Part shown: positions 5,010 to 54,920 of the stretch, in pieces
Layout: each line of letters starts with the position of its first letter
How positions within the stretch are numbered: the first letter of the stretch is position 1
DNA from: Branchipolynoe longqiensis
Taxonomy: Eukaryota > Annelida > Polychaeta > Phyllodocida > Polynoidae
Length of the DNA stretch: 64,000 nucleotides
Reading direction: 5' to 3'
NCBI GenBank assembly: GCA_030323885.1
Contig: CM059198.1
Location: 77,684,931 to 77,748,930 of the forward strand
The notes under the pieces: model-generated
Told to the model about the DNA's origin: nothing
The model's database searches: none
The model's input: only the letters and a program-made list of their open reading frames with translations
Program-made: the position numbers and the translations under genes

Positions 5010-6300
5010 ACTACTACGAAATACCAACCAAAATACTGAAAGAGGCACTCCAAGCCATCCCGGCCACTATAGTCGACCTATTCAACATCTCCTTTATCTC
5101 AGCCTGGAAAATGGCAACCATTACCCCTATCCACAAAAGTGGAGACAAACAAAACATGGGAAACTACAGGCCAATATCAATTCTTCAAACCCCAGGCAAG
5201 CTCATTGAAAAGTGTTACATAGACACATAAATGAACACCTGGAAAAAAACAATATACTAATTGAAAGACAAGGAGGTTTCAGGAAACTGCACTCCACATC
5301 TAAAACAATAGCTAACCTAACAAATGACATATTGGCGTCAATGAACCAAAAACAATTAGTTGGAGCAGCCTTCATTGACTTCAGCAAAGCATTCGATACA
5401 GTAGACCATAACATACTACTGGAAAAACTAGAATCCATGGGCATAAAATCCAACACTATGGACTGGATAAAATGCTACCTGAAAGACAGGCAACAGAGAA
5501 CAAAAATAAACAATACGCTATCAGACAACCAACCTGTCACATGTGGTGTACCCCAAGGGTAGTGCTAGGGCCACTGCTCTTTATAATCTACATAAACGAT
5601 CTTGAAAAATGGTTACAAACCGAATGCCTCCAACTATATGCAGATGACACAGTCATATATGCAAACGGCACCACAGAAGAGGAGGTAATAACTAAACTAA
5701 ACAAGCTCCTACTAAAACTGGATGAGTGGTGTGAGTCCAACAAAATAACCATCAACACAAGCAAGTCAAAAACAGTTCTCTTCTCACATAAACAAATGCC
5801 AGAAAGAAAACTACACTGTAAGCTAGGAAGCCAAACACTAGAAAATGTAGACCATTACAAATACCTAGGCCTTGAGTTGGACAGCCAACTAAACTACAAC
5901 CTATGTATAAACAAAATTGTCCAAAAGGTAAACCACAAACTGTGGCTATTTGCAAAGCTAAGAGACTACATGACACAAGAAATGTCAATAAAAATCTTCA
6001 AGGGCATGGTGCTACCCTATTTTGACTATGGAGATGTAAACTACATGGGTGCAAAGAAAGAACTTATAAAAAAACTGCAAACACTACAGAACAGAGCCCT
6101 GAAAATCTGCCTCAGAGTAGACAAGCTGCACCCCACCTACGACATACACAAAAGAACCAAAGTAAAATTGCTAGAAAATAGGAGAATAATTCATCTGAAA
6201 ACATTAGCATACAGCTATAGTCAAGACAATAAACTCCTAACAAAACCACAAAGGGCAACTAGAGCAAATAATGCGCCACTACTAAAGCAGACCAGGGGCC
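5010..6300 (+). pseudogene. LINE reverse transcriptase, three broken frames
   Basis: Seen in order: [59 protein letters not shown], catalytic [11 protein letters not shown] (about 5636-5668), and the thumb/C-terminal region with YKYLGLELD and a NRALKICL stretch. The frame changes near 5215-5230 and again near 5560 (just after CGVPQG), so the protein cannot be made. The order of motifs is that of the CR1/Jockey group of non-LTR RTs. Confidence 0.9.
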
Positions 6301-6430
6301 GTATGCATGACGTGGTGTTAGCGAGCCAAAACTGGTTTTGGCTGGGATTTCTAGGTTAGCGGCGAAAAGTCAGTACGCAAGTAGTGCAAACACACCGAGT
6401 GTAAGCTAACACCATGTCATGCATACAGGC
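6296..6430. mobile_element. Small MITE (GGGCC..TATGCATG family) nested in the LINE
   Basis: A 135-bp insert flanked by CCAG on both sides (6292-6295 and 6431-6434). Its ends are inverted: GGGCCGTATGCATGACG at the left and the complement of GGCCTGTATGCATGACATG at the right. The LINE copies at 27605-29190 and 33955-35770 have no insert at this point, so the borders can be read directly. A 743-bp relative lies at 59619-60361. Confidence 0.85.
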
Positions 6431-6994: not shown

Positions 6995-7975
6995 CAATGC
7001 CAGGTGGGGGCAACAGTGTCAGTTCATTATTGGGCAGAATGTGGTGGCAACAGTGTCAGGTTGTTATTGGTCAGAATTTGGTGGCAACAGTGTCAGTTTG
7101 TTATTGGGCAGAACATAGTTGCAACAGCATCAGTTCATTATTGGGCAGAATCTGGTGGCAACTGTGTTAGTTTATTATTGGGCAGAATGTGGTGCCAACA
7201 GTGCCAGTTCGCTATTGGGAAGAATGTAGTGGCAACATTGTCAGGTCGTTATTGGGCAGAACTCGGTGGCAAGAGTGTCAATTTGTATGACACTGACACT
7301 CTTGCCACCACAAGATGGCAAGAGTGTCAAGAGTGGTGGCAATAGTGTCAGTTTGTTATTGGGCAGAACGTGGTGCCGACAGTGTCAGTTCATTCTTGGG
7401 AAGAATGTGGAGGCAAGAGTGTCAGTTTGTTATTGGGCAGAATCTGGTGTCAACAGTGTCAGTTCGCTATTGGGAAGAATGTGGTGCCGACAATGTCAGT
7501 TCGTTCTTGGGAAGAATGTGGTGGCAACAGTGTCAGTTTGTTATTCGGCCAAACTTGCTTGCAATAGTGTCAGCTCGTTATTAAGCAGAATTTGGTGGCA
7601 CCAGTGTTGGTTTGTTATGGGAAAGAACGTGGTGGCAACAGTGTCAGCTTGTTATTGGGCAGAACGTGGTGGCAACAGTGTCAGCTTGTTATTAGCAAGA
7701 ACGGGGTGGCAACAGTGTCTTTTTGTTATTGGGAATAGTGTGGTGGCAACAGTGTTGGTTTGTTGTGGCAACAGTGTCAGTTTGTTATTGGGCAGTACAT
7801 CGTGGCAACAGTGTCAGTTTGTTATTGGGCAGAAGGTGGCGGTAACAGTGTCAGTTTATTATTGGGAAGAATGTGGTGGCAACAGTGTCAGTTCATTATT
7901 GGGCAGAACGTGGTGGTAACAGTGTCAGTTTGTAATTGGGCAGAACGTCGTGATTCAATCGACTCCCTGCCCTGT
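6995..7975. repeat. 37-bp minisatellite, about 26 units
   Basis: Units of the type GTGGCAACAGTGTCAGTTTG followed by TTATTGGGCAGAATG, period 37 bp. Because 37 is not a multiple of three and the unit has few stops, long frames (for example 7266-7919) cycle through all three phases. They give a 37-residue protein repeat rich in CYWAE, WWQQCQ and VIGQN. I read these frames as shadows of the repeat, not a gene. Confidence 0.9.
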
Positions 7976-11051: not shown

Positions 11052-11549
11052 NNNNNNNNNNNNNNNNNNNNNNNNNNNNNNNNNNNNNNNNNNNNNNNNN
11101 NNNNNNNNNNNNNNNNNNNNNNNNNNNNNNNNNNNNNNNNNNNNNNNNNNNNNNNNNNNNNNNNNNNNNNNNNNNNNNNNNNNNNNNNNNNNNNNNNNNN
11201 NNNNNNNNNNNNNNNNNNNNNNNNNNNNNNNNNNNNNNNNNNNNNNNNNNNNNNNNNNNNNNNNNNNNNNNNNNNNNNNNNNNNNNNNNNNNNNNNNNNN
11301 NNNNNNNNNNNNNNNNNNNNNNNNNNNNNNNNNNNNNNNNNNNNNNNNNNNNNNNNNNNNNNNNNNNNNNNNNNNNNNNNNNNNNNNNNNNNNNNNNNNN
11401 NNNNNNNNNNNNNNNNNNNNNNNNNNNNNNNNNNNNNNNNNNNNNNNNNNNNNNNNNNNNNNNNNNNNNNNNNNNNNNNNNNNNNNNNNNNNNNNNNNNN
11501 NNNNNNNNNNNNNNNNNNNNNNNNNNNNNNNNNNNNNNNNNNNNNNNNN
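11052..11549. other. Assembly gap (498 N)
   Basis: A run of undetermined bases. Any EXOC3 exon that falls here is invisible. Open frames crossing it are meaningless. Confidence 1.
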
Positions 11550-18512: not shown

Positions 18513-21141
18513 TGCGTGTGCTAGTAGTAGTAGACACTATAAATATGCAAACACTGTGGTCTTTTTTTTACTATTTTTTTGGTTAAAGTTGAGGCACTGG
18601 TCTTCGGCTATTATTTGTACAGGTAATTGCACTTTTTTTTAAAGATTAAAAAAAAAGGTTTATTGCAATTACAACTTAAAAATCTATTCCGCACGTTGCC
18701 GTCTCGTTTGTTCGAATCAACTATAAGCATCCACCATGGTAGATATGCTCTGCGAAACAGAAATAATGTCCCTGTTTTTTTTGTATTTGCTGTAGGGGAT
18801 CGTAGGCAAGTACCCGGATATCCGGTCGGAACACCTTGTCAACCTGCTCATGTCCCGTGGTGACGTGGGGCGCAGTGAGGCGCGACAGGTAGGTCATACT
18901 TACCTGCTGCTGATAAGCCTGTATCAGGATGTCTATGTCACCTCGCCTTCCCAGATTGTGATCTATCCAAGTACTGACGAGGTTCAACTATTACTTATTC
19001 ACTACTGATTTGGTCGGCTATAAGCCTGTATTAGGATGTCTATGGCACATCACGTTCCCAGATTGTGATCTATCCAAGTACTGACGAGGTTCAACTATTA
19101 CTTATCCGCTACTGATTTGGTCGGCTATAAGCCTGTATCAGGATGTCTATGGCACATCACTTTCCCAGATTGTGATCCATCCAAGTACTGGCGAGGTTCA
19201 ACTATTACTTATCCGCTACTGATTTGGTCGGCTATAAGCCTGTATCAGGATGTCTGTGGCACATCACTTTCCCAGATTGTGATCCATCCAAGTACTGGCG
19301 AGGTTCAACTATTACTTACTTATCCACTACTGATTTGGTCGGCTATAAGCCTGTATTAGGATGCCTATGGCACATCACTTTCCCAGATTGTGATCCATCC
19401 AAGTACTGACGAGGTTCAACTATTACTTATTCACTACTGATTTGGTCAGCTATAAGCCTGTATCAGGATGTCTATGGCACATCACTTTCCCAGATTGTGA
19501 TCCATCCAAGTACTGGCGAGGTTCAACTATTACTTATCCGCTACTGATTTGGTCGGCTATAAGCCTGTATCAGGATGTCTGTGGCACATCACTTTCCCAG
19601 ATTGTGATCCATCCAAGTACTGACGAGGTTCAACTATTACTTATTCACTACTGATTTGGTCGGCTATAAGCCTGTATTAGGATGTCTATGGCACATCACA
19701 TTCCCAGATTGTGATCCATCCAAGTACTGACGAGGTTCAACTATTACTTATTCACTACTGATTTGGTCGGCTATAAGCCTGTATTAGGATGTCTATGGCA
19801 CATCACGTTCCCAGATTGTGATCCATCCAAGTACTGACGAGGTTCAACTATTACTTATTCACTACTGATTTGGTCGGCTATAAGCCTGTATCCATCCAAG
19901 TACTGGCGAGGTTCAACTATTACTTATCCGCTACTGATTTGGTCAGCTATAAGCCTGTATCAGGATGTCTATGGCACATCACTTTCCCAGATTGTGATCC
20001 ATCCAAGTACTGACAAGGTTCAACTATTACTTATTCACTACTGATTTGGTCAGCTATAAGCCTGTATCAGGATGTCTATGGCACCTCGCCTTCCCAGATT
20101 GTGATCCATCCAAGTACTGACGAGGTTCAACTATTACTTATTCACTACTGATTTGGTCGGCTATAAGCCTGTATCAGGATGTCTATGGCACATCAAATTC
20201 CCAGATTGTGATCAATCCAAGTACTGACGAGGTTCAATTATTACTTATCCACTTCTGATTTGGTCGGCTATAAGCCTGTATCAGGATGTCTGTGGCACAT
20301 CACGTTCCCAGATTGTGATCCATCCAAGTACTGACGAGGTTCAACTATTACTTATCCACTACTGATTTGGTCAGCTATAAGCCTGTATCAGGATGTCTGT
20401 GGCACATCACTTTCCCAGATTGTCATCCATCCAAGTACTGATAAGGCTCAGCTATTACTTAATCACCACTCCGTCGTCATATGACCATAGATGTTGCCAG
20501 GATGTAAAACCCCAACAAACACATTACTTACCCACTACTGATTTGGTAGACCAAAGACCTGTAGCAGGATGTTTCTGGCAATCTGACACCTTGTTTATAG
20601 GGAAGTTTAGTAGCCCTGTCCACAAAACAGTAAATAGGTAACTACCTATGGGATAGCTGGTTGGTTTTTGGAGTTTTACGTCCTGGCAACATCTAAGGTC
20701 ATATCGGGACGGACATATGGGATAGCACTGTAAAATCGCTGTCAGTGCGCACAGTTAGAAGTCGGTACCCGTCCTTATATGTTGCTAGGACGTAAACCCC
20801 AAACAAAGCTAGCATCATTAATAGAAGCACCCAGTCTAAACGCTTTCAAATCGAGGCTTAACCGATTATGGAGACATTAGCGAAACAGGCAGAAACCCAT
20901 ACATGAGTTTAGCCCCACAAGTCACGAGATGAAAGGCGATATGGACTGTAAACAGCCCACTTCTGGCAACAGAGGGTAAAGTAAAGTAAAACAGGTTGAC
21001 TCGCTTGCTAGAAGTGTGTTGCGGTGCCCAGGTTCCTTACACGCGTGTCCTTTGTCACTTCAGATGGTGATTGAGTGTGTGGGGGAGGACGATGCCCGAC
21101 CAAGGACCCAGGGCCTCTTCTCACAGATACCCACTAACTAG
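12803..21141 (+). CDS. EXOC3: EXOC3 (Sec6) orthologue, C-terminal four coding exons
   Basis: Sec6/EXOC3 is a subunit of the exocyst, which tethers secretory vesicles to the plasma membrane. Four exons with AG/GT borders and compatible phases (12803-12911, 17106-17189, 18796-18888, 21064-21141) join into about 120 codons ending in TAG. The joined frame reads KVVFRSYEERLAS, then EADQLKSLF, DESPFECFPMVVEVIKM, LELTGIVGKYPDIRSEHL and LLMSRGDV. That matches the pattern I know from the Sec6 C terminus: (R)xxFRSxEER..REAEQLxxLF, AEVIKL.D, LxxLVxKYPDIR.DH, ALL..RGD. Upstream exons were not found; they may be in the gap or left of the window. The tail after RGD is shorter and less conserved than in vertebrates. 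TNFAIP2/EXOC3L paralogues are an alternative, but the KYPDIR and RGD motifs favour Sec6 itself. Confidence 0.82.
13063..13270 (+). repeat. SINE family B body, + copy of a tail-to-tail pair
   Basis: Lacks the tRNA head. Runs from CTACCTAGCCGGGCGCTCGGC to CCTTAGATGTTGCTAGGATGTAAAA. It faces the inverted copy at 13296-13490. Confidence 0.8.
13296..13490 (-). repeat. SINE family B body, - copy of a tail-to-tail pair
   Basis: Begins GTTGTTTTACGTCCTAGC and reads back to CACTGAGC..ACCAGCCCTG. Together with 13063-13270 it forms an inverted repeat of about 190-bp arms with a spacer of only about 25 bp, in EXOC3 intronic sequence. Confidence 0.8.
13605..13815 (+). repeat. SINE family A, well preserved
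   Basis: Has the tRNA-like head (ATGGCCGAATGAGTTAGAGC), a B box (GGGTTCGAACCC) and the body ending CTGCTTAAACAACTAATGTA followed by C- and A-rich sequence. The head folds too poorly to be called a functional tRNA gene. Confidence 0.8.
14040..14240. repeat. Duplicated segment with (GT)n, copy 1
   Basis: GCAGCAACAAATGTTTTAATAAGCTTC through the GT tract to GCGTGTGCTAGTAGTAGT and ATAAATATGCAAAC is repeated nearly unchanged at 18335-18550. The first part belongs to the AAGTTGCATAGTCC dispersed repeat family; a diverged third copy starts near 13830. Confidence 0.85.
14324..14624. mobile_element. Foldback MITE with CCCCAGTCACA ends
   Basis: Left end CCCCAGTCACATTACTG, right end complement CCCCAGTCACAGTACGG. 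Inside, GCGATCATTTTGGTCAC and its complement GTGACCAAAATGGTCGC-type blocks alternate, so most of the 301 bp can fold on itself. The 30 bp to its left (GTCCAGCGTCTCCATATAAT..) also occur at 16305-16334 without the insert. Confidence 0.75.
15058..15358 (-). repeat. SINE family C (tRNA-headed), inverted
   Basis: On the - strand it starts TTCTCTGTGGCGGAGTGGTT (tRNA-like A box), has a run TTTTTTCTAGGTCGGACTCC, a B box GGTTCGATTCC, the body GGGAGGTTAAAAATCCCTTG and a 3' end AGTATAAATCTTCAAGAGAG. Further copies lie at 40372-40676, 57994-58240 and 63146-63357. Confidence 0.8.
15360..17100. other. EXOC3 intronic sequence, no exon recognised
   Basis: AT-rich. It includes a short (TA)n at about 15818-15830, the 30-bp stretch at 16305 shared with the 14324 MITE border, and a CTTGAA/AAGCCTTGAA-rich patch at 16450-16540 that looks like a decayed dispersed repeat. 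Confidence 0.45.
17106..17189 (+). CDS. EXOC3: EXOC3 exon (third from the end)
   Basis: Exactly 84 nt (28 codons, phase 0 at both sides), acceptor GCTTACAG, donor CACA|GTAGGT. Encodes DESPFECFPMVVEVIKMRD to LELT. The G- and C-ending codons stand out from the AT-rich surroundings. Confidence 0.83.
17816..18140 (+). repeat. SINE family B, full-length reference copy
   Basis: The most complete copy in the window. tRNA-like head CCGGGCGCGGTGGCCGAATC, degenerate B box, central CACTCGGCATTAATAGGATAGG, CCTGGTCTCCCAGTGGG, and 3' end CATAGATGTCACCAGGATGTAAAACTCC followed by a C/A-rich tail. Confidence 0.8.
18335..18550. repeat. Duplicated segment with (GT)n, copy 2
   Basis: Near-identical partner of 14040-14240, including the GT tract, GCGCGTGCGTGTGCTAGTAG and the ATAAATATGCAAAC flank. 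Both copies sit in introns of EXOC3. Confidence 0.85.
18796..18888 (+). CDS. EXOC3: EXOC3 exon (second from the end)
   Basis: 93 nt, phase 0 at both sides, acceptor TTTGCTGTAG, donor CGACAG|GTAGGT. Encodes GIVGKYPDIRSEHLVNLL to SEARQ, the most conserved piece of the Sec6 tail. Confidence 0.85.
18905..20475. repeat. 107-bp minisatellite filling the last EXOC3 intron, about 14 units
   Basis: Landmark TGGTCGGCTATAAGCCTGTA recurs at 19011 and 19118 and onward at 107-bp spacing. Units differ by a few bases (TATCAGG/TATTAGG, ATCCGCTAC/ATTCACTAC), and one unit near 19890 is internally deleted. The array starts within about 20 bp of the splice donor at 18889. Frames of 60-80 codons inside it are repeat shadows. 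Confidence 0.93.
20648..20815. repeat. SINE family B fragments, head to head
   Basis: An inverted 3' fragment (GAGTTTTACGTCCTGGCAAC..GGGACGG) is followed directly by a + fragment ending GTTGCTAGGACGTAAACCCC. A further small 3' fragment lies at about 20475-20518. Confidence 0.7.
21064..21141 (+). CDS. EXOC3: EXOC3 terminal coding exon
   Basis: Acceptor TTTGTCACTTCAG; 25 codons (MVIECVGEDDARPRTQGLFS...) and TAG at 21139. It follows the exon ending SEARQ in phase 0; the MRQTIME-like position of the vertebrate tail corresponds to RQMVIE here. Confidence 0.8.
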   Translation: MVIECVGEDDARPRTQGLFSQIPTN

Positions 21142-23400: not shown

Positions 23401-24154
23401 CGATTTCCGCATTTTTTTTGTCGGAGACCACTTTCATTACCGATAACAAGAAAGTATAGTTATTCATAGAATAATAGAGACATTATTTAAAATAAGACAA
23501 TCAGTTGAAACACAAGGATGCTTTATTGACTTGTGTAACTTTGATGAATATCAATGATGGATGTAGATGATTTGTATACAGATAACATCTGCATTGCCCA
23601 ACAGAGCAGCAAATCACCATTCAGGGTTCATACACCTGAAGGAAGTCCAAATTCAACGCTTTTTCAAGCACTTTCCAGACCAACTTTCTTTTCCAATATG
23701 GCAAGGTTTTCGCTTGGATCTTGTGGCCGCATAATTCTCGTATCTCAAGATATAAATCTTAAAACCCAACCTTTTAGGCGTTTATATTTTATTTGAAATA
23801 ACAATATCATTTTCAAAGGTTTTCCAGATCGCAAGATTATTTTCAGTTATTCAAGCACTTGAGTACATAGGTACGAATCCTGCATGGTTATCTCCCTGCA
23901 GGGGAAATAGGGAACTAAAATTCACAGCTTGTCTCGATCTAGAAATTCCCAAGATAGTATTTAGTAGAAGGTAGTGATTTTTCAGAGTTATAACTGAGTA
24001 TATAATGAGAAAGTGGGAACAACAAAAGTTGTTTTAGAATACTTAATCACTGATGGTAAAATACATCATGTGTCCATCACATTGTCAGATATACATTTTA
24101 AGCAGAGTATTACCGAATGAAATTGATTGATTGATTGATTTCTGGGGGCGATTT

Positions 24155-24395
24155 AACGACGGGATAGCCAAATGAGTTGAGCGCCGACTGCCAGGTTTGG
24201 TAGGTCGTGTGATTTAAATCCCCGAGTTCAGTCCCTGGCCAAGTCAAACCAATGACATAAAAATGTTTACATGACAGCAACTAGCCTGGCGTTCAGCATT
24301 ACTAGGATAAGGCAAGGAGCAGTGGAATGAAGAAGACCAATTGTTCGCAATTGAAATTTTGGCTGCTTAATTAACTAATGTAGCAAACAAATTTT
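24155..24395 (+). repeat. SINE family A, diverged
   Basis: GACGGGATAGCCAAATGAGTTGAGC head, GAGCAGTGGAATGAAGAAGACC and CTGCTTAATTAACTAATGTAG end. The sequence at its end supplies TTTATT, the only nearby poly(A)-signal complement for POLR2K. Confidence 0.65.
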
Positions 24396-24398
24396 ATT
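24393..24398 (-). promoter_or_regulatory. Candidate POLR2K poly(A) signal
   Basis: TTTATT on the + strand (AATAAA on -), about 250 nt beyond the last terminal-exon copy. It could serve all four alternative terminal exons. Inferred from position only. Confidence 0.45.
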
Positions 24399-24646
24399 TT
24401 AAAATGGAGAGTTCATAATGACATCACAATAAGGGAATAGTCCCTCATCTCTGACTTAACGACATGAGAGGATTTTAAAAGTGTGACGTGAGTTTAACGT
24501 GGTGTCACAATGTTGGAGATGTGACGGTGCTGTAGACCACTTCGGGGCTGATGGTGATGACGCGTTGCCATGGTGATGAAGTGTGATGCTCCAACAAGAC
24601 ACTGGTAATGAGTGTGTGTGTGTGTGTGTCGGCGATGCTTAGGTTG

Positions 24647-24669
24647 CTATCTGCCATCAAACACCACCA
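24647..24669 (-). CDS. POLR2K: POLR2K terminal exon, copy 1 (most distal)
   Basis: Acceptor CATGTCACAG on the - strand, then TG GTG GTG TTT GAT GGC AGA TAG. Joined to the A left by exon 2 it gives M-V-V-F-D-G-R-stop. Confidence 0.8.
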
Positions 24670-27600
24670 CTGTGACATGGTTAAGGGATATACACGTGTG
24701 ACGTGCCAACAAGACACTGGTAATGTGTGTGTCGGCAATGCTTAAGTTACTATCTGCCATCAAACACCACCACTGTGACCTGGTTAAGGCATATATACAT
24801 GTGACGCGCCAACAATACACTGGTAATGACTGTGTGTGTGTGTGTCGGCAATGCTCAATTTACTATCTGCCGTCAAACACCACCACTGTGACCTGGTTAA
24901 GGCATATATACATGTGACGCACCAACAAGACACTGGTAATGTGTGTGTGTGTCGGCAATGCTTAAGTTGCTACCTGCCGTCAAACACTACCACTGCGACA
25001 TGGTTCAGGCATACATACAGCAGAGTACATTTCACTGACAATGATGAGCTGCATTTCTTGCCCCCCCCCCCCCCCCCCCGCACACCTACTAATATCATAC
25101 ACTGTACGCGCCTCTCCAGTTGGATCCTAAACATTTAACTAAAGTTGCACTCCGATAAAAGCATCAAATTTTCAAACCGGATTTGAACCTACATATCTTG
25201 TTTGTTGGGATTTTACCTCCTGGAAACATCTAAGGTCATATCAGGATGGGTACCGACTTAAAACAGTGCGCACTCATAGCGACTTAATAGTGCTGCCCCA
25301 CTGGGAGACCAGGCCGCCAGCGCCAGTCCTTGCCCTATCCAAATAATGCAGAGCAGTAGGCTAAGTAGCGCAAGTATCAATTTTGTAAGTCATTGGTTTG
25401 ACTCAACCAGGATTTAAACTCCTGACCTTCCACACGGAAAACCTGTGCTCTACTGATTTAGCCACCACTTCTGGTTCCTACGTATCCAATTTAGATACGG
25501 GTGCACTTACTGAGTATTTGGTGCTACATAAAAGGGCATAGTAAGTAAATTTAATAGAAACTATTACTGCTGAAGCTTATGGGTTCAGAGTTTTGACAAC
25601 CATGCCAAAATTAATTTGGCATGTTTACACTTCAAATATCTCCCAAGTTATGCTTAGGTCACAAATGCTGTGCCACATTATCCTGAATTCATACACGTAT
25701 TTAATATACAAAAACAATCATAACTTTGTTAATATTGATCACACAAACATGAATTTTGTATCATATTGATATTCACTTTACACCTGTTCACTGATGTCAA
25801 CAAATGTGACCGTACAGTGTTGTGGAGTCTGGATTGGCAGGATTGTGGCGTGCAGCGTTGTGATTTTCCAAAGTTAAGATAACTTTGACTTAAAATAACC
25901 GAAACCGCTTGCGGCGAGCAAAAAATGTACGGTCACCGTGCGACAACCGAATCCCACCATACGGTCTGGCCGATGTGGCTAGCTACGGTTGCTGCAAGCA
26001 CGCTGTAGCGCATTTGTGACCGTAGCATTAGTAATTTAAAAGCAGTTACTTCAAACTAAAATAATGTCGATGATAATGATCAACCTCAGGAAAGGAGCCA
26101 TATAGACAGGTAGGCGTTGGTAGTATGGTGATATCAGGGAGCCTAGGTGGTGTAATGGTTAGCACACTGCCCCGGAAGTCAAAGAGATGTGGGTTTGAGT
26201 CCCGCTCTAGGCGCAATATTTCCCATTTTCATCACCCCCATGACAATATCATGTTTATTTGCTGGATTTTTACATCCTGGAAAACCTAAGGTGATATCAG
26301 GATGAGTACTGACTTGTGATAATGCGCACACGTGGTGCCGGTGGTTTGGTCTCCCTGTGGGGCAGCACTATAAAGTTGCCATGAGTGCACCCTGTCACAA
26401 GTCAGTAGCCGTCCTAATATGACCATGGATATTTGTTGTTTTACATCCTAGCAAGATCTAAGGTCATATGGGGACGGGTACTGATTTGTGACAGTGCACA
26501 TGGCGATTTTATAGTGCTGCTTCACTTGGAGACCAGGCCACTGGCAACATGACCCGATATCCCACACAGTCACATTATCCTGATACTGTGCTAACCGGTT
26601 CTTGTCCTATCGCATTAATGCAGAGTACCAGGCTAGGTACCGACAAGTATAAACTTGTATAAGTCATTGGTTTGACTCGGCTGGGATTCAAACTCCCAAC
26701 CTTCCGCATGGGAAGCATGCGCTCTACCTGCAGCTACTGCGTCTGGTCGACCTTGGATGTTGCCAGGACGTAAAACTCCCAAACACGGTCATTGGTCACA
26801 ATCTATTCGATAATAACTTTGCCTACATGCTTTGCTCCACACGGGGTTCAAAAGGATACTTCTCCTGGTTCGCTTCTTGTACATGATGCGATAACCGCAC
26901 TCTCGACAACGAATTGGATCTCGGGCCTTTATCTCATTTTCATGATGACAATCTGGAAATGGAATCGAAGAAAATGCAAATTTCAATAAACTAAATTGTA
27001 GTTATTTGCATTGGACATGTCTTCGTTTGTTTCAAAATATAGTGTCAAATGGTGAAAATAGTTTCTGTACTGTATCTGTACTCAGTGTTTGATGCAGAGT
27101 TTCATAGTACTTGCAGATGGAAACAAAATCTTACGATGTTAATGACTCCAGAAAAGGTAAACTCTTTCATCATTTTTATTTTTTATAGAAATAAATGTCT
27201 TCAACTTAATGAAGACATTTTATATGACCATTTGAAGTGAAATTTGCTATTGTTCATAGGTTTTCATTAAGTTTGTGACACTTTATTTTCAATGATGTTG
27301 ACAATGGCACAAATTAGTGATGTCATTTTCTATTTATTTAGCTACATCCATCCCAATAGGATACATAATACACAATATTAACATTTACTTTTGATCTAAA
27401 ATATCTCCCACATTATTAGGCTAAATGATGAAATCTAAATATTGACACTCCAATAATGGGTTTCTTTGAAATATGCATTTCAAGTAGACTACCTCAAGTG
27501 GTACACAGTTTCTGAGAATGACCCATATACATCAAGTCGTGGAAATCCGAGAAAACGCGGATATCTTTTATCCCTGTATGTTTAAAGCCTTGTCTAAAGG

Positions 27601-29341
27601 GCCATTTTTAATTTTTTTTTATTGAGGCTGTATTTATACTGTCCATAGCATATAAGCCCGGATACCCAGGCTTGTTTTCAATGCTGGCCAGTTGTAGTGT
27701 TGGTGTTTTCTTACCACACAGGGGCTGCTGATAAGGTATTTGATTGCCTGCATTTCAGTAGCAGATAGATAATTGGTTGGCATGGTTAATAGCCTATGTT
27801 AGTTTTTTTGGATTTTCTTGGTATATATGTATTATTTTTTTCTACTCTTATTACTAGACTAGCCTACTCCTATTTACATATCATAGGCTTGTACGTAGCT
27901 GTGTGGTGTGTTATCTGGCTACTTTTGGCATGGTTACCTTCCATTGGGTGTCCCGCTGGTGGGCCGTGACATATCACATGCCCCTTTGCAGTGCAGCTTA
28001 GTGGGGGTTTCCTAGCCTAATTTGCACAGATATTTTTTGTAAGTTTTTAGGTCAGGAATTTGTCGTTCCTTTACCGTTTGGGCATTCCACACCTTGGCAG
28101 CCATTTCCAGCATGCTTCTCTCATGAGCTTTTATTTGGCTTCTGGTCTGCTTTAGTAGTGGCGCATTATTTGCTCTAGTAGCCCTTTGTGGTTTTGTGTA
28201 GAAGTTTAATGTTTTGACTATAGCTATATGCTAATGTTTTCAAATGAATTATTCTCCTATTTTCTAGTAATTTCACTTTGGTTCTTTTGTGTATGTCATA
28301 GGTGGGGTGCAGCTTGTCTACTCTTAGACAGATTTTTAGGGCTCTGTTCTGCAGTGTTTGCAGTTTTTTTTAGTAGTTCTTTTCTCGCACCCATGTAGTT
28401 TACATCTCCATAGTCAAAATAGGGGAGCACCATGCCCTTGAAGATTTTTTATTGACATTTCTTGTGTCATGTAGTCTCTTAGCTTTGCAAATAGCCACAG
28501 TTTGTGGTTTACTTTTTGTATAATTTTATTTATACATAGGTTGTAGTTTAGTTGGCTGTCCAACTCAAGGCCTAGGTATTTGTAATGGTCTACATTTTCT
28601 AGTGTTTGGTTTCCTAACTTACAGTGTAGTTTTCTTTCTGGCATTTGTTTATGTGAGAAGAGTACTGTTTTTGATTTGCTTGTGTTGATGGTTATTTTGT
28701 TGGACTCACACCACTCATCTAGTTTTAGTAGGAGTTTATTTAGTTTAGTTATTACCTCCTCTTCTGTGGTGCCATTTGCGTATATGACTGTGTCATCTGC
28801 ATATAGTTGGAGCATTCAGTTTGCAACCATTTTTCAAGATCGTTTATATAGATTATAAAGAGTAGTGGCCCTAACACTGACCCTTGGGGTACACCACATG
28901 TGACAGGTTGGTTGTCTGATAGTGTATTGTTTATTTTTGTTTTCTGTTGTCTGTTGTTCAGGTAGCATCTTATCCAATCCATAGTGTTGGATTTTATGCC
29001 CATGGTTTTTAGTTTTTCCAGTAGTATTTTGTGGTCTACTGTGTCGAATGCTTTGCTGAAGTCAATGAAGGTGGCTCCAACTAATTGTTTTTGGTTCATT
29101 GATGCCATTATGTCATTTGTTAGGTTAGCTATTGTTTTTGATGTGGAGTGCAGTTTCCTGAAACCCCCTTGACTTTCGTTTAGTATATCGGAGATTCCCC
29201 ACCTCTAAACACCTAATTAAGACAATCTGTTCATGATGAGTTAATATTTTGACATTTCCAACTAGATTGGCTACTCACTTTTCCATCTATTTGTTGATTT
29301 AGCATGAAAATGAAACACTGCGAATATCACAACATAACTAA

Positions 29342-29373
<32 letters not shown>

Positions 29374-30801
29374 GCTGTTGGTCGCAATGCGACAAAGACG
29401 GCTTTCATTACTTGACTGCCACTCTCCATTTAGCTCTCTGCTGTGAGAGTGATGTGTACATTTCATGAAAGCTGCCAGCAAAAGTGTTGAAGTGCTGCTG
29501 GCTTTTGCAAGTTACCAGCGGCACTCTCGGGGAGCAAATAGAGGTTTCACACCGGCAAGAACATGTCCAGACAGGCGCAAAACTATTTGTCCCTGCAGTG
29601 GCTGGTCGGGAGATGTTGGGAGTTCCATACATCAACTGCCCTTAATGCTGCCACAGTGACATGGTTTTCTGTTTAGGGTTTGCTCCCTTAGCCTTCGGTA
29701 CTGTCAAGAACCTGTACCACAAGGCACAACATATCCCACTCAGTCACATTATACTGGCACTGAGCCAACCATCCTTGCCATATCCTATTAATGCCGAGCA
29801 CCAAGCTAGGAAGCAACAAGTATCAAATTTTATAAGTTGTTGGTTTGACTCGACCAGGAATCAAACTCCCGGCCTTCCACATGGGAAGCCTCCGCTCTAC
29901 CAATATGGCAACAGCGTCCAGTAATTTCATGTTAGAACCCAAGCACAACAGATTTCATTCAAGCGCTCTCTTTAGGTGAAACATACTAAAACGTAAATAA
30001 TTCACATGCCATGTAACCAAGTATCTGGCGTAACCATCATAAATGCAAGTAACCAAGGAGTCACAAATGTAATAACTGTAGTAACGTAGCCAACGTGCTG
30101 AACCCAGCTACGACAAACCGTCATTTGCCGTTCAATATTCGCACAGTAAGGAGCAGTAGTACATAGTACTGTAGTAACGTAGCCAACGTGCTGAACCCAG
30201 CTACGACAAACCACCACTTGTCGTTCAATATTCGCACAGTAAGGAGCAGTAGTACATAGTACTGTAGTAACGTAGCCAACATGCTGAACCGAGCTACGAC
30301 AAACCGCCACTTGTCGTTCAATATTCGCACAGTAAGGAGCAGTAGTACATAGTATTGTAGTAACGCAGCCAACGTGCTGAACCGAGCTGCGACAAACTGC
30401 CACTTGCCGTTCAATATTCGCACAGTAAGGAGCAGTAGTACATAGTACTGTAGTAACGTAGCCAACGTGCTGAACCGAGCTACGACAAACCGCCACTTGT
30501 CGTTCAATATTCGCACAGTAAGGAGCAGTAGTACATAGTATTGTAGTAACGCAGCCAACGTGCTGAACTGAGCTGCGACAAACTGCCACTTGCCGTTCAA
30601 TATTCGCACAGTAAGGAACAGTAGTACATAGTATCTTAGTGAGCTATACCCGAAATGAATAATAATTTCACCTATTTGTATGTAAATATTGCTACTGTGT
30701 TTGGGGAAAGGATTTGATTGAGACTTACCCCCACAAATGTAGATCATAATTTGCGGTTTCTGTGTCGGCCCGTCCTTACCATCTCCACGAGGGGTGTTCA
30801 T
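24647..30801 (-). CDS. POLR2K: POLR2K (RPB12/RPABC4) gene with four tandem terminal exons
   Basis: A small zinc-ribbon subunit shared by RNA polymerases I, II and III. Exon 1 (30801-30729) starts MNTPRGDGK and ends MIYICG plus one base. Exon 2 (26952-26860) supplies [20 protein letters not shown] and [11 protein letters not shown] plus one base. Any one of four 23-nt exons supplies the end (M)VVFDGR-stop. The product is 62 residues against 58 in human as I recall it. The zinc site is C-x2-C-x13-C-x2-C across the exon 1/2 junction. Human ends LVVFDAR; here Ala is replaced by Gly in all four copies. The exon 2 donor GTATCC is weak. Intron 1 is 3776 bp and contains a LINE; intron 2 is 1867 bp if the nearest terminal exon is used. 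Exon order, phases and protein length all fit, so I am confident of the gene. Which terminal exon is used is unknown. Confidence 0.93.
24750..24772 (-). CDS. POLR2K: POLR2K terminal exon, copy 2
   Basis: Acceptor CAGGTCACAG; the coding bases are identical to copy 1 (GAT for Asp, AGA for Arg). Confidence 0.8.
24863..24885 (-). CDS. POLR2K: POLR2K terminal exon, copy 3
   Basis: Acceptor CAGGTCACAG. Differs from copies 1 and 2 by GAC for GAT, which is synonymous. Confidence 0.8.
24970..24992 (-). CDS. POLR2K: POLR2K terminal exon, copy 4 (nearest to exon 2)
   Basis: Acceptor CATGTCGCAG. Has GTA for GTG, GAC, and AGG for AGA, all synonymous. This is the first acceptor reached by transcription and the most diverged copy. 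Confidence 0.8.
25062..25079. repeat. Poly(C) run
   Basis: 18 C in a row. Similar runs lie at 40026-40049 (C) and 46636-46650 (G). Confidence 0.95.
25203..25480 (-). repeat. SINE family B, nearly full length, in POLR2K intron 2
   Basis: Reads inversely from the tail (GATTTTACCTCCTGGAAAC) through CACTGGGAGACCAGGCCGCC to the head region GCTCTACTGATTTAGCCACC. It interrupts an AAGTTGCATAGTCC-type repeat whose parts lie on both sides (25145-25200 and 25485-25680). Confidence 0.78.
26050..26250 (+). repeat. SINE family D (tRNA-headed)
   Basis: GGGAGCCTAGGTGGTGTAAT begins the tRNA-like part; GGGTTTGAGTCCCGCTCTAG is the B-box half; then TTTCCCATTTTCATCACCCC. The same family forms the array at 61690-62900. 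Confidence 0.75.
26255..26745 (-). repeat. SINE family B cluster: fragment, + copy and full - copy
   Basis: An inverted 3' fragment (26262-26350) runs directly into a + fragment (26355-26435). The tail of that fragment meets the tail of a full-length - copy (26440-26745) ending with its tRNA-like head (GCATGCGCTCTACC). It lies in POLR2K intron 2. Confidence 0.75.
26860..26952 (-). CDS. POLR2K: POLR2K exon 2
   Basis: Acceptor CCATTTCCAG, 93 nt, donor AGAA|GTATCC. Encodes the core [19 protein letters not shown] and [12 protein letters not shown], almost residue for residue as in other animals. It holds three of the four zinc cysteines. Confidence 0.95.
27030..27535 (+). repeat. Right half of a TGGGTCRTTCTCAG-type MITE
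   Basis: From ATAGTGTCAAATGGTGAAAAT to GTTTCTGAGAATGACCCATA it matches 32938-33428 at high identity. The left terminal repeat is missing. It lies in POLR2K intron 1. Confidence 0.8.
27605..29190 (-). mobile_element. CR1/Jockey-like LINE, copy 2, in POLR2K intron 1
   Basis: Inverse orientation to the window and co-oriented with POLR2K. The 3' end (TTTTATTGAGGCTGTATTTA) is at 27617. RT motifs [33 protein letters not shown] and a [11 protein letters not shown] block lie between 28740 and 29108 but in two frames, broken near 28800. It is 5' truncated at QGGFRKL. This copy lacks the MITE found in copy 1. Confidence 0.88.
29340..29373. repeat. (ATC)n microsatellite
   Basis: ATCATC repeats, next to the dispersed repeat that follows. 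Confidence 0.9.
29375..29725 (+). repeat. Dispersed ~350-bp repeat, copy 1
   Basis: Matches 50035-50400 over its whole length (GCAATGCGA.AAAG, GTGTTGAARTGCTGCTG, CTTTTGCAAGTTAC, GAGCAAATAGAGGT, CTATTTGTCCCTGCA.TGGC, AACCTGTACCACA). Non-coding; class unknown. Confidence 0.8.
29727..29925 (-). repeat. SINE family B, inverted, 3' truncated
   Basis: Begins at the central CATATCCCACTCAGTCACATTA and reads to the head (GGAAGCCTCCGCTCTACC). It abuts the dispersed repeat directly. Confidence 0.72.
30075..30640 (-). repeat. 93-bp minisatellite in POLR2K intron 1, about 6 units
   Basis: GTAGTAACGTAGCC recurs at 30078 and 30171 and then every 93 bp. Units alternate between two types (GTAGTAACGTAGCC and GTAGTAACGCAGCC), a 186-bp higher-order pattern. 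Since 93 is divisible by three, two - strand frames stay open across it, with 31-residue repeats ([14 protein letters not shown]..). I do not call these genes. Confidence 0.92.
30729..30801 (-). CDS. POLR2K: POLR2K exon 1
   Basis: 24 codons plus one base: [16 protein letters not shown], then MIYICG, donor GGGG|GTAAGT. The start at 30801 is chosen because it gives an N-terminus of family length before the conserved MIYICG; an upstream in-frame Met at 30819 is possible. It contributes the first zinc cysteine. Confidence 0.92.
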
Positions 30802-33954: not shown

Positions 33955-35770
33955 TTGTTTTCGATTGAGGCTGCATTTATACTGTCCATTGCATATAAGC
34001 CTGGGTATTCAGGTTTTTTTTCAATGCTGGCCAGCTGTAGTGTTGATGTTATCTTATCATACAGTAGCTGCTGATAAGGTATTTGATTGCCTGCATTTCA
34101 GTAGCAGATAGATAGTTGGTTGGTATGGTTAGTAGCTCGTGTTAGTTTTTTTAAATTTTCTTGGCATATGTTTTATATTTTCTACTCTTACTACTAGACT
34201 ACTCCTATTTACATATCATAGGCTTGTACGTAGCTGTGTGGTGTGCTATCCGGCTACTTTTGGCATGGTTATCTTCCATTGGGCACCCGCTGGTGGGCCG
34301 TGACATATCACATGCTCCTTTGCAGTGCAGCTTAGTGGGGGTTTCCTAGCCTTATTTTGCACATAATTTTTTTGTATGTTTTTAGGTCAGGAATTTGTCG
34401 TTCCTTTACCGTTTGGGCATTCCACACCTTGGGAGCCATTTCCAGCGTGCTTCTCTTGTGAGCTTTTATTTGGCTTCTGGTCTGCTTTAGTAGTGGTGTA
34501 TTATTTGCTCTAATAGCCCTTTGTAGTTTTGTTAGGAGTTTATTGTTTTGACTATAGTGCTATACGCTAATGTTTTCAAATGAATTATTCTATTTTCTAG
34601 TAATTTTACTTTGGTTCTTTTGTGTATGTCATAGGTAGGGTGCAACTTGTTTATTCTGAGGCAGCTTTTTAGGGCTATGTTCTGCAGTATTTGCAGTTTT
34701 TTTAGAAGTTCTTTTTTCGCACCCATGTAGTTTACATCTCCATAGTCAAAATAGGGGAGCACCATGCCTTTGAAGATTTTTATTGACATTTCTTGTGTCA
34801 TGTAGTCTCTTAGCTTTGCAAATAGACACAGTTTGTGGTTTACCTTTTGGATAATTTTGTTTATACATAGGTTGTAGTTTGGTTGGCTGTCCTACTCAAG
34901 GTCTACATTTTCTACATGGTCTACATTTTCTAATGTTTGGTTTCCTAGCTTACCGTGTAGTTTTCTTTTTGGCATTTGTTTATGCGAGAAGAGAACTGTT
35001 TTTGATTTACTTGCATTGATGGTTATTTTGTTGACTCACACCACTCATCTAGTTTTAGTAGGAGCTTATTTAGTTTAGTTATTACCTCCTCTGCTGTGGT
35101 GCCCTCTGCATATATATGACTGTGTCATCTGCATATAGTTGGAGGCATTCGGTTTGCAACCATCTTTCAAGATTGGTTATGTAGATTATAAAGAGCAGTG
35201 CCCTTAACACTGACCCTTGGAGTACACCACATGTGACAGGTTGGCTGTCTGATAGTGTATTGTTTATTTTTGTTTTATGTTGCCTGTTGTTCAGGTTGCA
35301 TTTTATCCAGTCCATAGTTTTGGATTTTATGCCCATGGTTTTGAGTTATTCCAGTAGTATGTCAGGGTCTACTATATCGAATGCTTTGCTGAAGTCAATG
35401 AAGGCACCTCCAACTAATTGTTTTTGGTTCATTGATGCCAGTATGTCATTTGTTAGGTTAGCTATTGTTTTTTATGTGGAGTGCAGTTTCCTGAAGCCCC
35501 CTTGTCTTTCGTTTAGTATATCGTTTTATTCCAGGTGTTCATTTATGTGTCTATGTAACACATTTTCAATGAGTTTGCCTGGGGTTTGAAGAAGTGATAT
35601 TGGCCTGTAGTTTCCCATGTTTTGTTTGTCTCCATTTTTGTGAATAGGGGTGATGGTTGCCATTTTCCAGGCTCAGATAAAACGCCCCCGGTTCAAAGGA
35701 GATGTTGAATAGGTCTACTAGAGTGGCCGGGATGGCTTGGAGTGCCTCTTTCAGTAAGTTTGTTTAGTCA
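33955..35770 (-). mobile_element. CR1/Jockey-like LINE, copy 3
   Basis: 3' end ATTGAGGCTGCATTTATACTG at 33966. RT pieces include CGVLQGSVLRALLFIIYITN and YADDTVIY around 35082-35336 and a C-terminal piece [21 protein letters not shown] around 34532-34801. It extends further 5' than copy 2 (to the NYRPISL region near 35600) but has many frame breaks. No MITE insert. Confidence 0.87.
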
Positions 35771-40740: not shown

Positions 40741-41663
40741 ATGGCTGACAGTATAGAAACAGATGTGGACCCCTTGTCGACATTGATGGACCTCGACTCG
40801 TCTTGGGGTGAGGATGACCTCATCCAGGAGCTGAAGTCAATCCACCCTACACCTCAGCGACTCAGCACGTCTGTTGTCGACATGGACTTCAGACGACTTG
40901 TCACCAGATTCGACAACACCAGCACACCCTTTGTATCACACTCCACCATGTGCAAATCTTTGTTGTCCTCAGAGACGACAGTGCTGCCTTGTTGGCTCAG
41001 CAATGATTCAGGATACAGTGGGGAATCTAGCATTCTCTTCTCCGCGTCCTCCTTGAGTCTGGCTGATAAGAACATGCGGGCAGACAGTGTTTCTTCTTGG
41101 AATTCCTTACAAAGTCAGACAGAAGAACAATCACAAAAACTATGCAGTCGAAGAAGCATCAACAGTGATGTACCGCATGATGATGATGTCCCGCTTGAAT
41201 CGCTATCTGAGACCGACTCCGCTTATGATGAGACCTCATCAGTCTGTTCGCAGCAGAACCATGAACTCTCTGACATCATCTCCACTTCGCCTAGCTCATC
41301 TTGCGACTCTCAGGCAATGGACATGGTCTTCCAGGCGCTGGATCTCAACTCGAGTGGCTACAGCTCCATTGACTCCTCTCGTTGCTGTTCTCAACACAAT
41401 CTCACGATAGATGCTGATGACAATGCCGTCGACATGTCACCGGACTCTGAGTCATCGTGTGAGTCACAGGTTTCTGTTGTGGAAATGGTGTGCATAAAAC
41501 TTGAAAAGGTGCTTCCGCTCTTCTCTAAGGCGATTGTGGATCGGCTTATTGGTCGAAAGATGGGACTTCACACAGTGGATGTTGTCAGTGAGTTGCAAAT
41601 GCGCAACATGGCGGCGCCACTGGGCATCATCTTAAGCTTCCTCTCCGGAAAAGATCTAACAAG
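40741..41663 (+). CDS. FBXO43: FBXO43-like coding exon 1
   Basis: 307 codons plus AG; donor AACAAG|GTATGT. Holds the phosphorylatable N-terminal region and the first half of the F-box. The intron interrupts the F-box after KDLT. Confidence 0.93.
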
Positions 41664-42889
41664 GTATGTATGCATAATCAGTTGAAGCAACAAATTTATT
41701 AATTTAATTGTACCTTTTTGTGTTGATTATCTCTTACTAATCTTGCAATCTTAATTTGGGGGGGGGGTTGTGTTCATGATCTCTTGTAGGTCTAGTAAAT
41801 TTAATGGGGAGGCGAATATAGTTTGTTCACTATCTCCTATTAGTCTTGTTTACTGAAAGCCACTGTTAATGAAAGTGTATCTTGTAAATTACAGGTCCTA
41901 GCATTTGCTTGTGTTGTGGTTCATTATCCTAATATCAGACTGTTAACCTTTTGTTCTCATTTATTTCAGTGTGAGCTGTGTCAGTCGGTCGTGGCGAGAA
42001 TCTGTGTTAGATGATTCCCCAGCGAGACATCGAAAACAATTACATGTCAAACAGATAAAAATACAACGGTGCGCACAAAAGGTATGTCTATTTTATACTA
42101 AAGATAAACTTGGCTGGTTTTCATCTAAGACCACTATAGTTATTTCCATCTACACACAAACTGTGACGTCTATCTAAGCTTTTTGATGGTTTTCATCTAA
42201 AACCGTTATATTCATTTCTAACCTGTGAGGTTTGTATCTAGGCTGGATTCATCGGTCAAATCTAAAGAATCACAAGGTCTAGATTAGTTTCATACAGTCG
42301 CCTGGTCTCACAGTGGGGCAGCACTATAAAATCGCCAATAGTGTGCACTGTCACAAGTCGATGTTCATCCTGAGATGTTGCTAGGATGTAAATCCCAACA
42401 CAAAATAACAAACAAACACAATATATATATATGTTTTTTCAATTAATTAAACAAATATATTGTTTATTTAAGGAGAATCGATGCGTGAAGAAAATCCGCT
42501 CCGACCGGCGCTTGGTCCGACGGCGGGAGACGGAGCCGGCGACCGCCGCCCCACTGGCCGAGCTGATCCACGCCTCCGCCGCCCCCACGCCCCCCTCCGC
42601 CGCCCACACCACCACCAAGCACCAACAGTTTGTTGCCGCCGCCGGTCGGCTCACCAACGAGGAGAGTTTGCGAAAGTGCCCGCACTGCCAGCACCCGGCG
42701 CTCGTGCACCGCGTGCAGGAGCGCGCGCAGTGTGCCAACCGCGCATGCGCCGCCGACTTCTGCATCCGGTGTCTAGGCGCCTACCATGGGGCGAAGGACT
42801 GCCCTGGCGGTGTGGCACTGGGCCGGAAGTCGCGGAACGAGCCCAAGATCGGCGGGAGGAAGAGCAAGCGGAACCTAAGGAGGCTCTGA
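40741..42889 (+). CDS. FBXO43: Emi1/Emi2-type APC/C inhibitor (FBXO43/FBXO5 orthologue)
   Basis: Family members block the anaphase-promoting complex and so hold cells before anaphase (mitotic Emi1, meiotic Emi2). Three coding exons (40741-41663, 41970-42081, 42473-42889) join in frame into 483 residues (human Emi1 is 447). Seen: a Ser-rich N-terminal half with DSGYSGES at 89-96 and SSGYSS at 204-209, resembling beta-TrCP degrons; an F-box around 285-325 (LSFLSGKDLT/SVSCVSRSWRES); a zinc-binding region with C414, C417, C432, C437, C442, C445, H450 and C455; and the C-terminal tail NLRRL, whose final Arg-Leu is the family's APC/C-binding signature. The start is the first Met after an acceptor at 40715; the 25 nt before it are open, so an upstream start cannot be excluded. 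Synteny with POLR2K favours FBXO43; it may be the single ancestor of both vertebrate genes. Confidence 0.94.
41970..42081 (+). CDS. FBXO43: FBXO43-like coding exon 2
   Basis: Acceptor CATTTATTTCAG, donor CAAAAG|GTATGT. Completes Ser308 and encodes VSCVSRSWRESVLDD and a basic stretch ending RCAQK; leaves in phase 0. Confidence 0.93.
42296..42420 (+). repeat. SINE family B 3' fragment in FBXO43-like intron 2
   Basis: CGCCTGGTCTCACAGTGGGG to TGTTGCTAGGATGTAAATCCC plus an ACAAACAAACA tail. It makes up about a third of the 391-bp intron and ends about 50 bp before the acceptor. Confidence 0.75.
42473..42889 (+). CDS. FBXO43: FBXO43-like coding exon 3 (zinc-binding region and RL tail)
   Basis: Acceptor TGTTTATTTAAG; 138 codons and TGA. 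Third positions are overwhelmingly G or C (for example the GCCGCCCCACTGGCCGAG stretch), in strong contrast to exons 1 and 2. The linker before the zinc region is Ala/Pro/Thr rich (AAPLAELIHASAAPTPPSAA). Confidence 0.95.
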   Translation, partial: ENRCVKKIRSDRRLVRRRETEPATAAPLAELIHASAAPTPPSAAHTTTKHQQFVAAAGRLTNEESLRKCPHCQHPALVHRVQERAQCANRACAADFCIRCLGAYHGAKDCPGGVALGRKSRNEPKIGGRKSKRNLRRL

Positions 42890-50884: not shown

Positions 50885-51400
50885 TTAAAGAAACCCTAAC
50901 CTGTTCGGTGGACGAATGTGTCTACCATAACGTGTTTGATATGTATGCGTCATATCACCTTTGTGGTCACCGTTGTCATCCCGAGCTGTCCTATCATTTG
51001 GCATTTCATGTGGACTGTCCGGGGGACATTTATATATGAATTTCCTATTTCGGCGCACAATTTTATTGCCATTGTTAACGATCTCATAATCCCTTGGTCC
51101 AGGTGTATTATTATGAACGATCTTCCCTGATCTCCATTGTCCCATGTGATCCTTATACCTAATGTTATCACCTGGCTTAAGTGTGGTCAACGGTGTTCCA
51201 GCTTTCCTATCAAAGTGTTCTTTCTGATTTAATTGATTATGTTTCAATAACAACAATTTGGACGTTTGTACACACGGTTTCAACTTAATATCTAACACAG
51301 GTAAGCGTGTTCTCAACCTGTGAGACATCAGCAGTTGAGCTGGTGACGCCCCTATGCCTTGCAATGTAGTGTTACGGTAGTTCAACAGGCCTAGATACAT
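50885..51400 (-). CDS. Integrase C-terminal region, out of frame with gag-pol
   Basis: Starts YLGLLNYRNTTLQGIGASPAQLLMSHRLR, the end of the integrase core that follows the catalytic Glu. It continues with a GDNIRYKDHMGQWRSGKI chromodomain-less C-terminal domain and a tail rich in charged residues. It belongs to the same polyprotein as 51391-54774 but is shifted by an indel near 51395-51410. Whether this is a mutation or a sequencing error cannot be told. Confidence 0.88.
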   Translation of the reverse strand: MYLGLLNYRNTTLQGIGASPAQLLMSHRLRTRLPVLDIKLKPCVQTSKLLLLKHNQLNQKEHFDRKAGTPLTTLKPGDNIRYKDHMGQWRSGKIVHNNTPGPRDYEIVNNGNKIVRRNRKFIYKCPPDSPHEMPNDRTARDDNGDHKGDMTHTYQTRYGRHIRPPNRLGFL

Positions 51401-54774: not shown

Positions 54775-54786
54775 TTCGTCGAGTGC

Positions 54787-54805
54787 TCCCACGTATCTGA
54801 CCCCA
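54787..54805 (-). promoter_or_regulatory. Primer binding site (tRNA-Leu-like)
   Basis: Directly after the 5' LTR the - strand reads TGGGGTCAGATACGTGGGA. The complement of the 3' end of the tRNA-Leu at 57897 plus CCA is TGGTGTCAGAAGTGGGA. They agree except for one substitution and a 2-base insertion region, so a Leu tRNA primer is likely. Confidence 0.5.
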
Positions 54806-54920
54806 TGTAATGTACGTCTGAACACCTTGAGTAGCGTGATGGAACTGTTTATTTACATACGTGTTACCCAGCATGCCCCGTACATGACGTCACGGTTACC
54901 TATGACACGGATACATAACA
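54806..54920 (-). repeat. 5' LTR (115 bp)
   Basis: Identical to 50552-50666; flanked on its outer side by CATAC. Confidence 0.96.

Follow-up and report, generated by a model that had tools for sequence, protein, structure and literature searches.

The last intron of POLR2K in Branchipolynoe longqiensis looks, by its splice signals, like an intron of the U12-type (minor spliceosome) class, and it is followed by four tandem copies of its acceptor and last exon. This arrangement is very probably the outcome of a tandem duplication of about 107 bp at an ancient phase-1 U12-type intron, which has placed four acceptor-exon cassettes behind one donor. In each unit of the array, 27 nt of intron tail precede the 23-nt terminal exon, after which come about 57 nt of 3' UTR that include a CA tract differing in length from copy to copy, and this segment, with a U12 branch point and an AG in its intron tail, is the one that would have been duplicated. 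The U11/U12 di-snRNP would then pair the single donor with one of four branch points, and whichever copy was chosen would give the same protein. Unchosen copies downstream would remain in the 3' UTR, whereas those upstream would be removed with the intron. The duplication may have been tolerated because no copy lacks any part of the acceptor or departs from the reading frame. In this regard, U12 acceptors are compact and need no polypyrimidine tract, so that there would be room for a whole acceptor in a unit of about 107 bp, which may explain why its duplication was harmless. Near-neutral redundancy would be the simplest evolutionary reading of the array.

The window, that is the whole 64-kb stretch of DNA analysed here, contains the following parts of the gene:

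30729..30801, minus strand: POLR2K coding exon 1, 73 nt, placed by tblastn of human POLR2K and by the joined translation
26860..26952, minus strand: POLR2K coding exon 2, 93 nt, ending in phase 1 with an A, placed by the match to the human protein and by translation
24617..25019, minus strand: tandem array with units of about 107 nt, delimited by repeat searches and alignment of the copies
24970..24992, minus strand: last exon copy 1, 23 nt, reading (A)TG GTA GTG TTT GAC GGC AGG TAG
24863..24885, minus strand: last exon copy 2, 23 nt
24750..24772, minus strand: last exon copy 3, 23 nt
24647..24669, minus strand: last exon copy 4, 23 nt, followed by a unique 3' UTR

On the evidence of its encoded protein, the gene is POLR2K (RPABC4/Rpb12). 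A scripted join of exons 1 and 2 to any of the last-exon copies gives an identical 62-aa protein in 4/4 cases, as an earlier sequence-only reading of this DNA had proposed. The protein matches the zinc ribbon family of the 7-kDa Pol subunit (PF03604) with 63.1 bits against a cut-off of 24, as well as solved RPABC4 chains (28jc_L at E 5.8e-26), and ends in RRMVVFDGR. Among the best 120 of 464 POLR2K relatives, the C-terminal RMVVFDGR is found in five, including Ridgeia piscesae, which at 81% identity is also the closest of the named relatives in that set; the end of the protein encoded by the four copies is therefore no chance resemblance. A GR ending is present in 7 of the same best 120 of 464, among them Ridgeia piscesae (RMVVFDGR) and Bradybaena similaris (RLIVFDGR), and to judge from these relatives the FDGR end in place of FDAR is real. 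The assembly searched comprises 1.85 Gb in 1914 contigs. Human POLR2K found a single locus in it, exon 2 of the gene described here, at E <= 0.001 (4/4 candidates scored), and, within the reach of this search, POLR2K is thus a single-copy gene.

As for the array, the sequence-only reading had described four 23-nt stretches on the minus strand preceded by TCACAG or TCGCAG, and all four lie exactly where it placed them: the hexamer is TCGCAG before copy 1 and TCACAG before copies 2-4. The distances between successive exon starts are 107, 113 and 103 nt, unique intron sequence precedes copy 1, and unique 3' UTR comes after copy 4. The idea of a minisatellite-like amplification with units of about 107 bp was also borne out, with Tandem Repeats Finder reporting 3.7 copies of period 113 with 85% matches at 24617-25019, and a separate repeat search giving a 118-nt unit present four times, the other three copies being 64-90% identical to the reference copy. 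Such head-to-tail units fall within the 10-100+ bp of minisatellites. The 27-nt intron tail is identical in copies 2 and 3, the exon in copies 3 and 4. As in alternative terminal exons, these are homologous tandem exons with an acceptor each; the predicted isoforms would not differ in protein, with the same 62 aa from 4/4 copies, and the exons have no poly(A) signal of their own as far as AATAAA and ATTAAA are concerned.

Further tandem repeats are scattered over the window. A 93-bp repeat with 6 copies (30075-30633) lies within POLR2K intron 1 near exon 1, a 37-bp minisatellite of about 25 units occupies 7004-7952, and an array of about 14 units of 107 bp, unrelated to the exon array, extends over 18913-20470; its like period is either a coincidence or the result of a common bias. 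The existence of other arrays with units of about 100 bp indicates that the birth of repeats is common here.

The class of the intron had not been recognised by the sequence-only reading, which had proposed CCTTAAC/CCTGAAC as possible branch points. These motifs fit U12-type branch points. The signals concerned are:

26849..26859, minus strand: U12-type 5' splice site GTATCCTTTTG, the only RTATCCTTT in the window
24993..25011, minus strand: copy 1 U12-type acceptor, TGCCTGAAC, two mismatches to TTCCTTRAC, branch A 11 nt before the exon, CAG
24886..24904, minus strand: copy 2 U12-type acceptor, TGCCTTAAC, one mismatch, 11 nt, CAG, with an extra AG 4 nt past the branch A
24773..24791, minus strand: copy 3 U12-type acceptor, TGCCTTAAC, one mismatch, 11 nt, CAG, with an extra AG 4 nt past the branch A
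24670..24688, minus strand: copy 4 U12-type acceptor, TCCCTTAAC, one mismatch, 11 nt, CAG, with no intervening AG

At the junction with exon 2, an A is followed directly by GTATCCTTTTG. The donor matches RTATCCTTT perfectly and has no G at -1 or +5. On both strands of the 64-kb window RTATCCTTT occurs once, exactly at the exon 2 boundary, where GTATCCTTT occupies 26859-26851, and 1 of 7825 GT dinucleotides (both strands of the window) reads GTATCCTTT. Shuffled windows contained at least one RTATCCTTT in 79/100 cases, with a mean of 1.60; chance occurrences being this common, only the position of the donor is telling. The donor after exon 1, by comparison, is GTAAGT, that of an ordinary intron. 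The genome also encodes a U12 snRNA, which scored 119.7 bits against a cut-off (gathering score) of 53, with a match in 0 of 14 control genomes. This U12 snRNA carries GUAAGGAA, which we take to be the stretch that pairs with the branch point. The intron between exon 2 and the array is in phase 1, and in a passage of PMC10639083 this phase is the commonest one reported for minor introns of animals and plants. The final A of exon 2 agrees with the bias of U12 GT-AG introns against G at -1 described in part of PMC10853781. Moreover, no polypyrimidine tract was seen by eye before the acceptors, and the lack of such a tract is given as typical of the U12 class in a section of the review PMC3584512, together with an optimal distance of 11-13 nt between branch point and 3' splice site. 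An ordinary duplication of a terminal exon at a U2 intron was also considered and was rejected because of the splice signals.

The branch motif is CCTTAAC in copies 2-4 and CCTGAAC in copy 1, and with the second A of the motif taken as the branch A, its distance to the exon is 11 nt in 4/4 copies. The combined motif CCTTRACN7CAG occurs three times in the window, always in the array (copies 2-4), a number reached in 0/100 shuffles, whereas the looser CCTNRACN7CAG occurs four times, again always in the array with copy 1 added, and 1/100 shuffles reached four. A perfect TTCCTTRAC is present in none of the four copies. Branch-like 9-mers with at most one mismatch and an AG at 9-14 nt number 14 on both strands of the window, three of them in the array, and those with at most two mismatches number 80; as such sites are frequent, branch points alone are weak evidence, most of all for copy 1. 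The sequence-only reading had called all four copies apparently usable, and it is here that copy 1 becomes doubtful. Its pairing to the U12 snRNA of the same genome is 6/8 in a fixed-register count, compared with 7/8 for copies 2-4, one of its two branch-point mismatches falls in the core, and it is matched by two further 2-mismatch sites of the same intron, at 26186 and 25804, with an AG at 12-13 nt. From the pairing counts, copy 1 should be the weakest acceptor of the four, and copies 2-4 are predicted to be used more. The extra AG of copies 2 and 3 is probably too close to the branch A to be used.

Traces of the same donor may be recognised in the POLR2K proteins of other animals. Two protein searches (best 120 of 464 and best 120 of 453) yielded 164 different POLR2K proteins. 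Of these listed entries, 116 are canonical by pattern and P0037 is canonical outside the pattern, a Lamellibrachia entry ends precisely where exon 2 does, and 46 bear other, non-canonical tails. In 43/46 the tail begins with S, C or R followed by IL, the exceptions being P0157, P0158 and P0164, and a tail of this kind is the phase-1 read-through to be expected from a GTATCCTT donor. The 43 proteins come from cnidarians, molluscs, a hemichordate, an insect and vertebrates. The count of 43/46 carries a bias, since the second query itself had the ending SILLN and the lists are the best 120 of 464 and of 453; in the first search, whose query had no such tail, both read-through tails among the best 120 of 464 show the pattern (Lottia and P0077). 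As read from these amino acids, the GTATCCTT donor looks ancient, with the same donor implied in other phyla. Altogether, 44 of the 164 listed entries stop at the last intron or seem to enter it (P0018, P0073, P0077, P0121-P0156 and P0159-P0163). This points to an annotation fault of POLR2K database entries at the last intron, where the last exon seems to be often missed by gene prediction, probably because it is tiny.

At the 3' side of the array, neither AATAAA nor ATTAAA, the two signals searched, was found between the copies, and the first AATAAA comes downstream of all of them:

24393..24398, minus strand: AATAAA nearest downstream of the array, a candidate poly(A) signal shared by the four copies

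The shared poly(A) signal put forward by the sequence-only reading is thus supported, with the first downstream AATAAA starting at 24398; further downstream, AATAAA starts again at 23793 and 23527. Within the intron there is an AATAAA at 26259 and an ATTAAA at 25705 and at 25555. As no signal of either kind separates the copies, the choice of copy would alter the length of the 3' UTR only, and the predicted isoforms would differ solely in this length, by 103-323 nt. The proposal of four interchangeable last exons consequently keeps its differing 3' UTRs, but because the 3' ends are shared the copies are better described as alternative 3' splice sites than as separate terminal exons. Control of the choice by hnRNP L at the CA tracts, also suggested there, is a conjecture, and the copy number may perhaps be polymorphic. 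A candidate exon-UTR hairpin in each unit, an RNAalifold stem between the exon and the CA tract, was rejected, with z from -0.41 to -1.11 and 0/28 pairs changing on both sides.

The differences among the exon copies affect 3/23 columns, all of them third codon positions, and are all synonymous transitions, just as had been noticed from the letters. If the events are independent, three synonymous changes out of three have a chance probability of 0.008-0.028, depending on the transition bias. Selection on each copy, as suggested earlier, is only hinted at by this result. The exon does not stand out clearly from its flanks by low variability: variable columns amount to 3/23 in the exon, 7/27 in the intron tail and 8/46 ungapped columns (plus 19 gapped) in the UTR. 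Taken as a whole, the pattern is a hint, though no proof, that more than one copy is used now or was used formerly.

The main competitor of such shared use, with a probability only a little below even, is that one copy alone is spliced, either the strongest or the first one reached, and that the others are inert minisatellite copies which still read correctly because they are young or have been homogenised by unequal crossing-over and conversion. Splicing of a single copy is compatible with the array anatomy laid out above, and its odds are not to be added to those of the other readings. It would account for the low divergence of the copies, for an exon that varies about as much as its flanks, for the shared intron tail of copies 2 and 3 and the shared exon of copies 3 and 4, and for the branch-point mismatch of copy 1, but it sits less easily with three exon changes that are all synonymous (p 0.008-0.028) and with the preservation of AG, frame and 11-nt spacing in 4/4 copies. 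The possibility that the array is an assembly artefact, the true copy number being one or another small number, is quite unlikely. The assembly may be weak at a run of 19 G at 25061-25079 (minus strand), just upstream of the exon array, and the window has an N gap in another place (11052-11549); against this, the copies are distinguished by substitutions and by the length of the CA tract, and the contig that contains them all is at least 77.7 Mb long. Moreover, in a search that skips simple repeats and very common words, the array DNA had one match in the assembly, itself (1 candidate), and did not turn up on a contig of a second haplotype.

Removal of the intron by the major (U2) spliceosome, its U12-like letters being a coincidence or relics of a converted intron, is very unlikely. 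Part of PMC10853781 does describe U2 machinery splicing some introns with U12-like signals, but such a reading has to face a perfect RTATCCTTT donor with no G at -1 or +5, acceptors with no polypyrimidine tract by eye, a branch-AG distance of 11 nt and the implied presence of the same donor in other phyla. Least probable of all, and hardly to be credited, is a pseudogene or second paralogue with a normal POLR2K elsewhere, a reading for which no evidence was found, since human POLR2K has one match in the assembly (the exon 2 part), the frame and the splice sites are intact, and the locus is linked to an FBXO43-like gene, a partner that is also found in human 8q22.2 (PMC7954304, as far as its relevant passage goes). 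The duplication at an ancient U12-type intron remains the preferred explanation of the locus.

The neighbouring gene is placed as follows:

~40741-42889, plus strand: FBXO43-like gene, with an IBR_1 match of 34.1 bits (cut-off 27) in its inferred last exon

No Pfam family matched its first exon. The joined protein gave 10 matches among 7997 scored candidates, the best four of them without names, and those to vertebrate FBXO43 were at E 3e-28 or worse. POLR2K (30801-24647, minus strand) and this gene (plus strand) are arranged head to head, an order that is presumably also the human one. Both POLR2K and FBXO43 are among the human 8q22.2 genes in the portion of PMC7954304 concerned, so their linkage may be very old. 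Other features of the window are related to mobile elements. Two tRNA-like matches above the Rfam cut-off and with no ARAGORN call, at 26141-26213 (in POLR2K intron 2) and 62741-62813, are possibly tRNA-derived SINEs. By eye, 406-2405 contains reverse transcriptase/RNase H and tyrosine recombinase frames resembling a DIRS-type element, 51391-54852 (minus strand) an open frame of 1153 aa resembling an LTR-retrotransposon polyprotein, and 5209-6359, 28414-29204 and 34532-34891 three incomplete copies of a single non-LTR reverse transcriptase family, of which one is in POLR2K intron 1.

Compared with known systems, the POLR2K intron shares with U12-type introns the GTATCCTTT donor, the CCTTAAC branch point, the 11-nt spacing, phase 1 and a U12 snRNA in the genome, but it differs from them in having four U12-type acceptors for one donor. 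In the relevant section of a 2012 review, alternative splicing of U12 introns was considered almost entirely absent (PMC3584512). This older view is tempered by a 2019 survey (PMC6717393), in an excerpt of which alternative 5' and 3' splice sites are reported near minor introns in every tissue studied and rank first in prominence among the kinds of alternative splicing at these introns. The tandem duplicated terminal exons of pip, as described in part of PMC9013439, are likewise tandem and homologous; in a comparison made irrespective of the intron type of pip, the POLR2K copies stand apart by encoding the same peptide, by the absence of poly(A) signals between them and by their U12-type signals. 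The mutually exclusive exons of MAPK8/9 and TMEM87A/B are another case of exon choice beside a minor intron, but there, according to passages of PMC8329584 and PMC6717393, U2-type 3' sites compete for U12-type 5' sites, whereas in POLR2K there are several U12-type 3' sites. A tandem arrangement of minor-spliceosome signals is also seen in the USSE; there, from the corresponding parts of PMC3584512 and PMC6865273, the repeated signal is the 5' splice site and a U2 acceptor is activated, while in POLR2K the acceptor and the exon are repeated. Finally, units of about 107 bp in four copies, a CA tract of variable length and the presence of similar arrays in the window are all as in minisatellites (VNTR), but the POLR2K unit contains a complete splice acceptor and a protein end.

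No precedent for several U12 acceptor-exons behind one U12 donor was found among the open-access papers listed for the subject, and no paper of the open-access literature searched treats POLR2K together with the minor spliceosome or the U12 type with tandem 3' splice sites. In the same literature, two papers combine POLR2K with U12 or minor-intron terms: in the relevant extracts of PMC10853796 POLR2K and U12-type introns are named separately, POLR2K not being named there as having one, and the other is PMC3521179. POLR2K may well be present in minor-intron databases already.

The array could in principle have been kept by selection, the tandem U12 branch points raising the odds that the slow minor spliceosome finishes the intron, which we regard as unlikely. 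If true, the array would be an avidity or redundancy device at the intron that is rate-limiting for a core RNA polymerase subunit, and both POLR2K output and the length of the 3' UTR would be tuned by copy number. In any case, minor introns have rigid signals and, as stated in portions of PMC3584512 and PMC8329584, are considered to offer few splice sites to choose from. In POLR2K of B. longqiensis, four natural U12-type acceptors differ in their branch-point match, order and spacing, and each outcome would give the same protein, which would offer a clean way to learn whether the minor spliceosome favours the first acceptor, the last one or the best.
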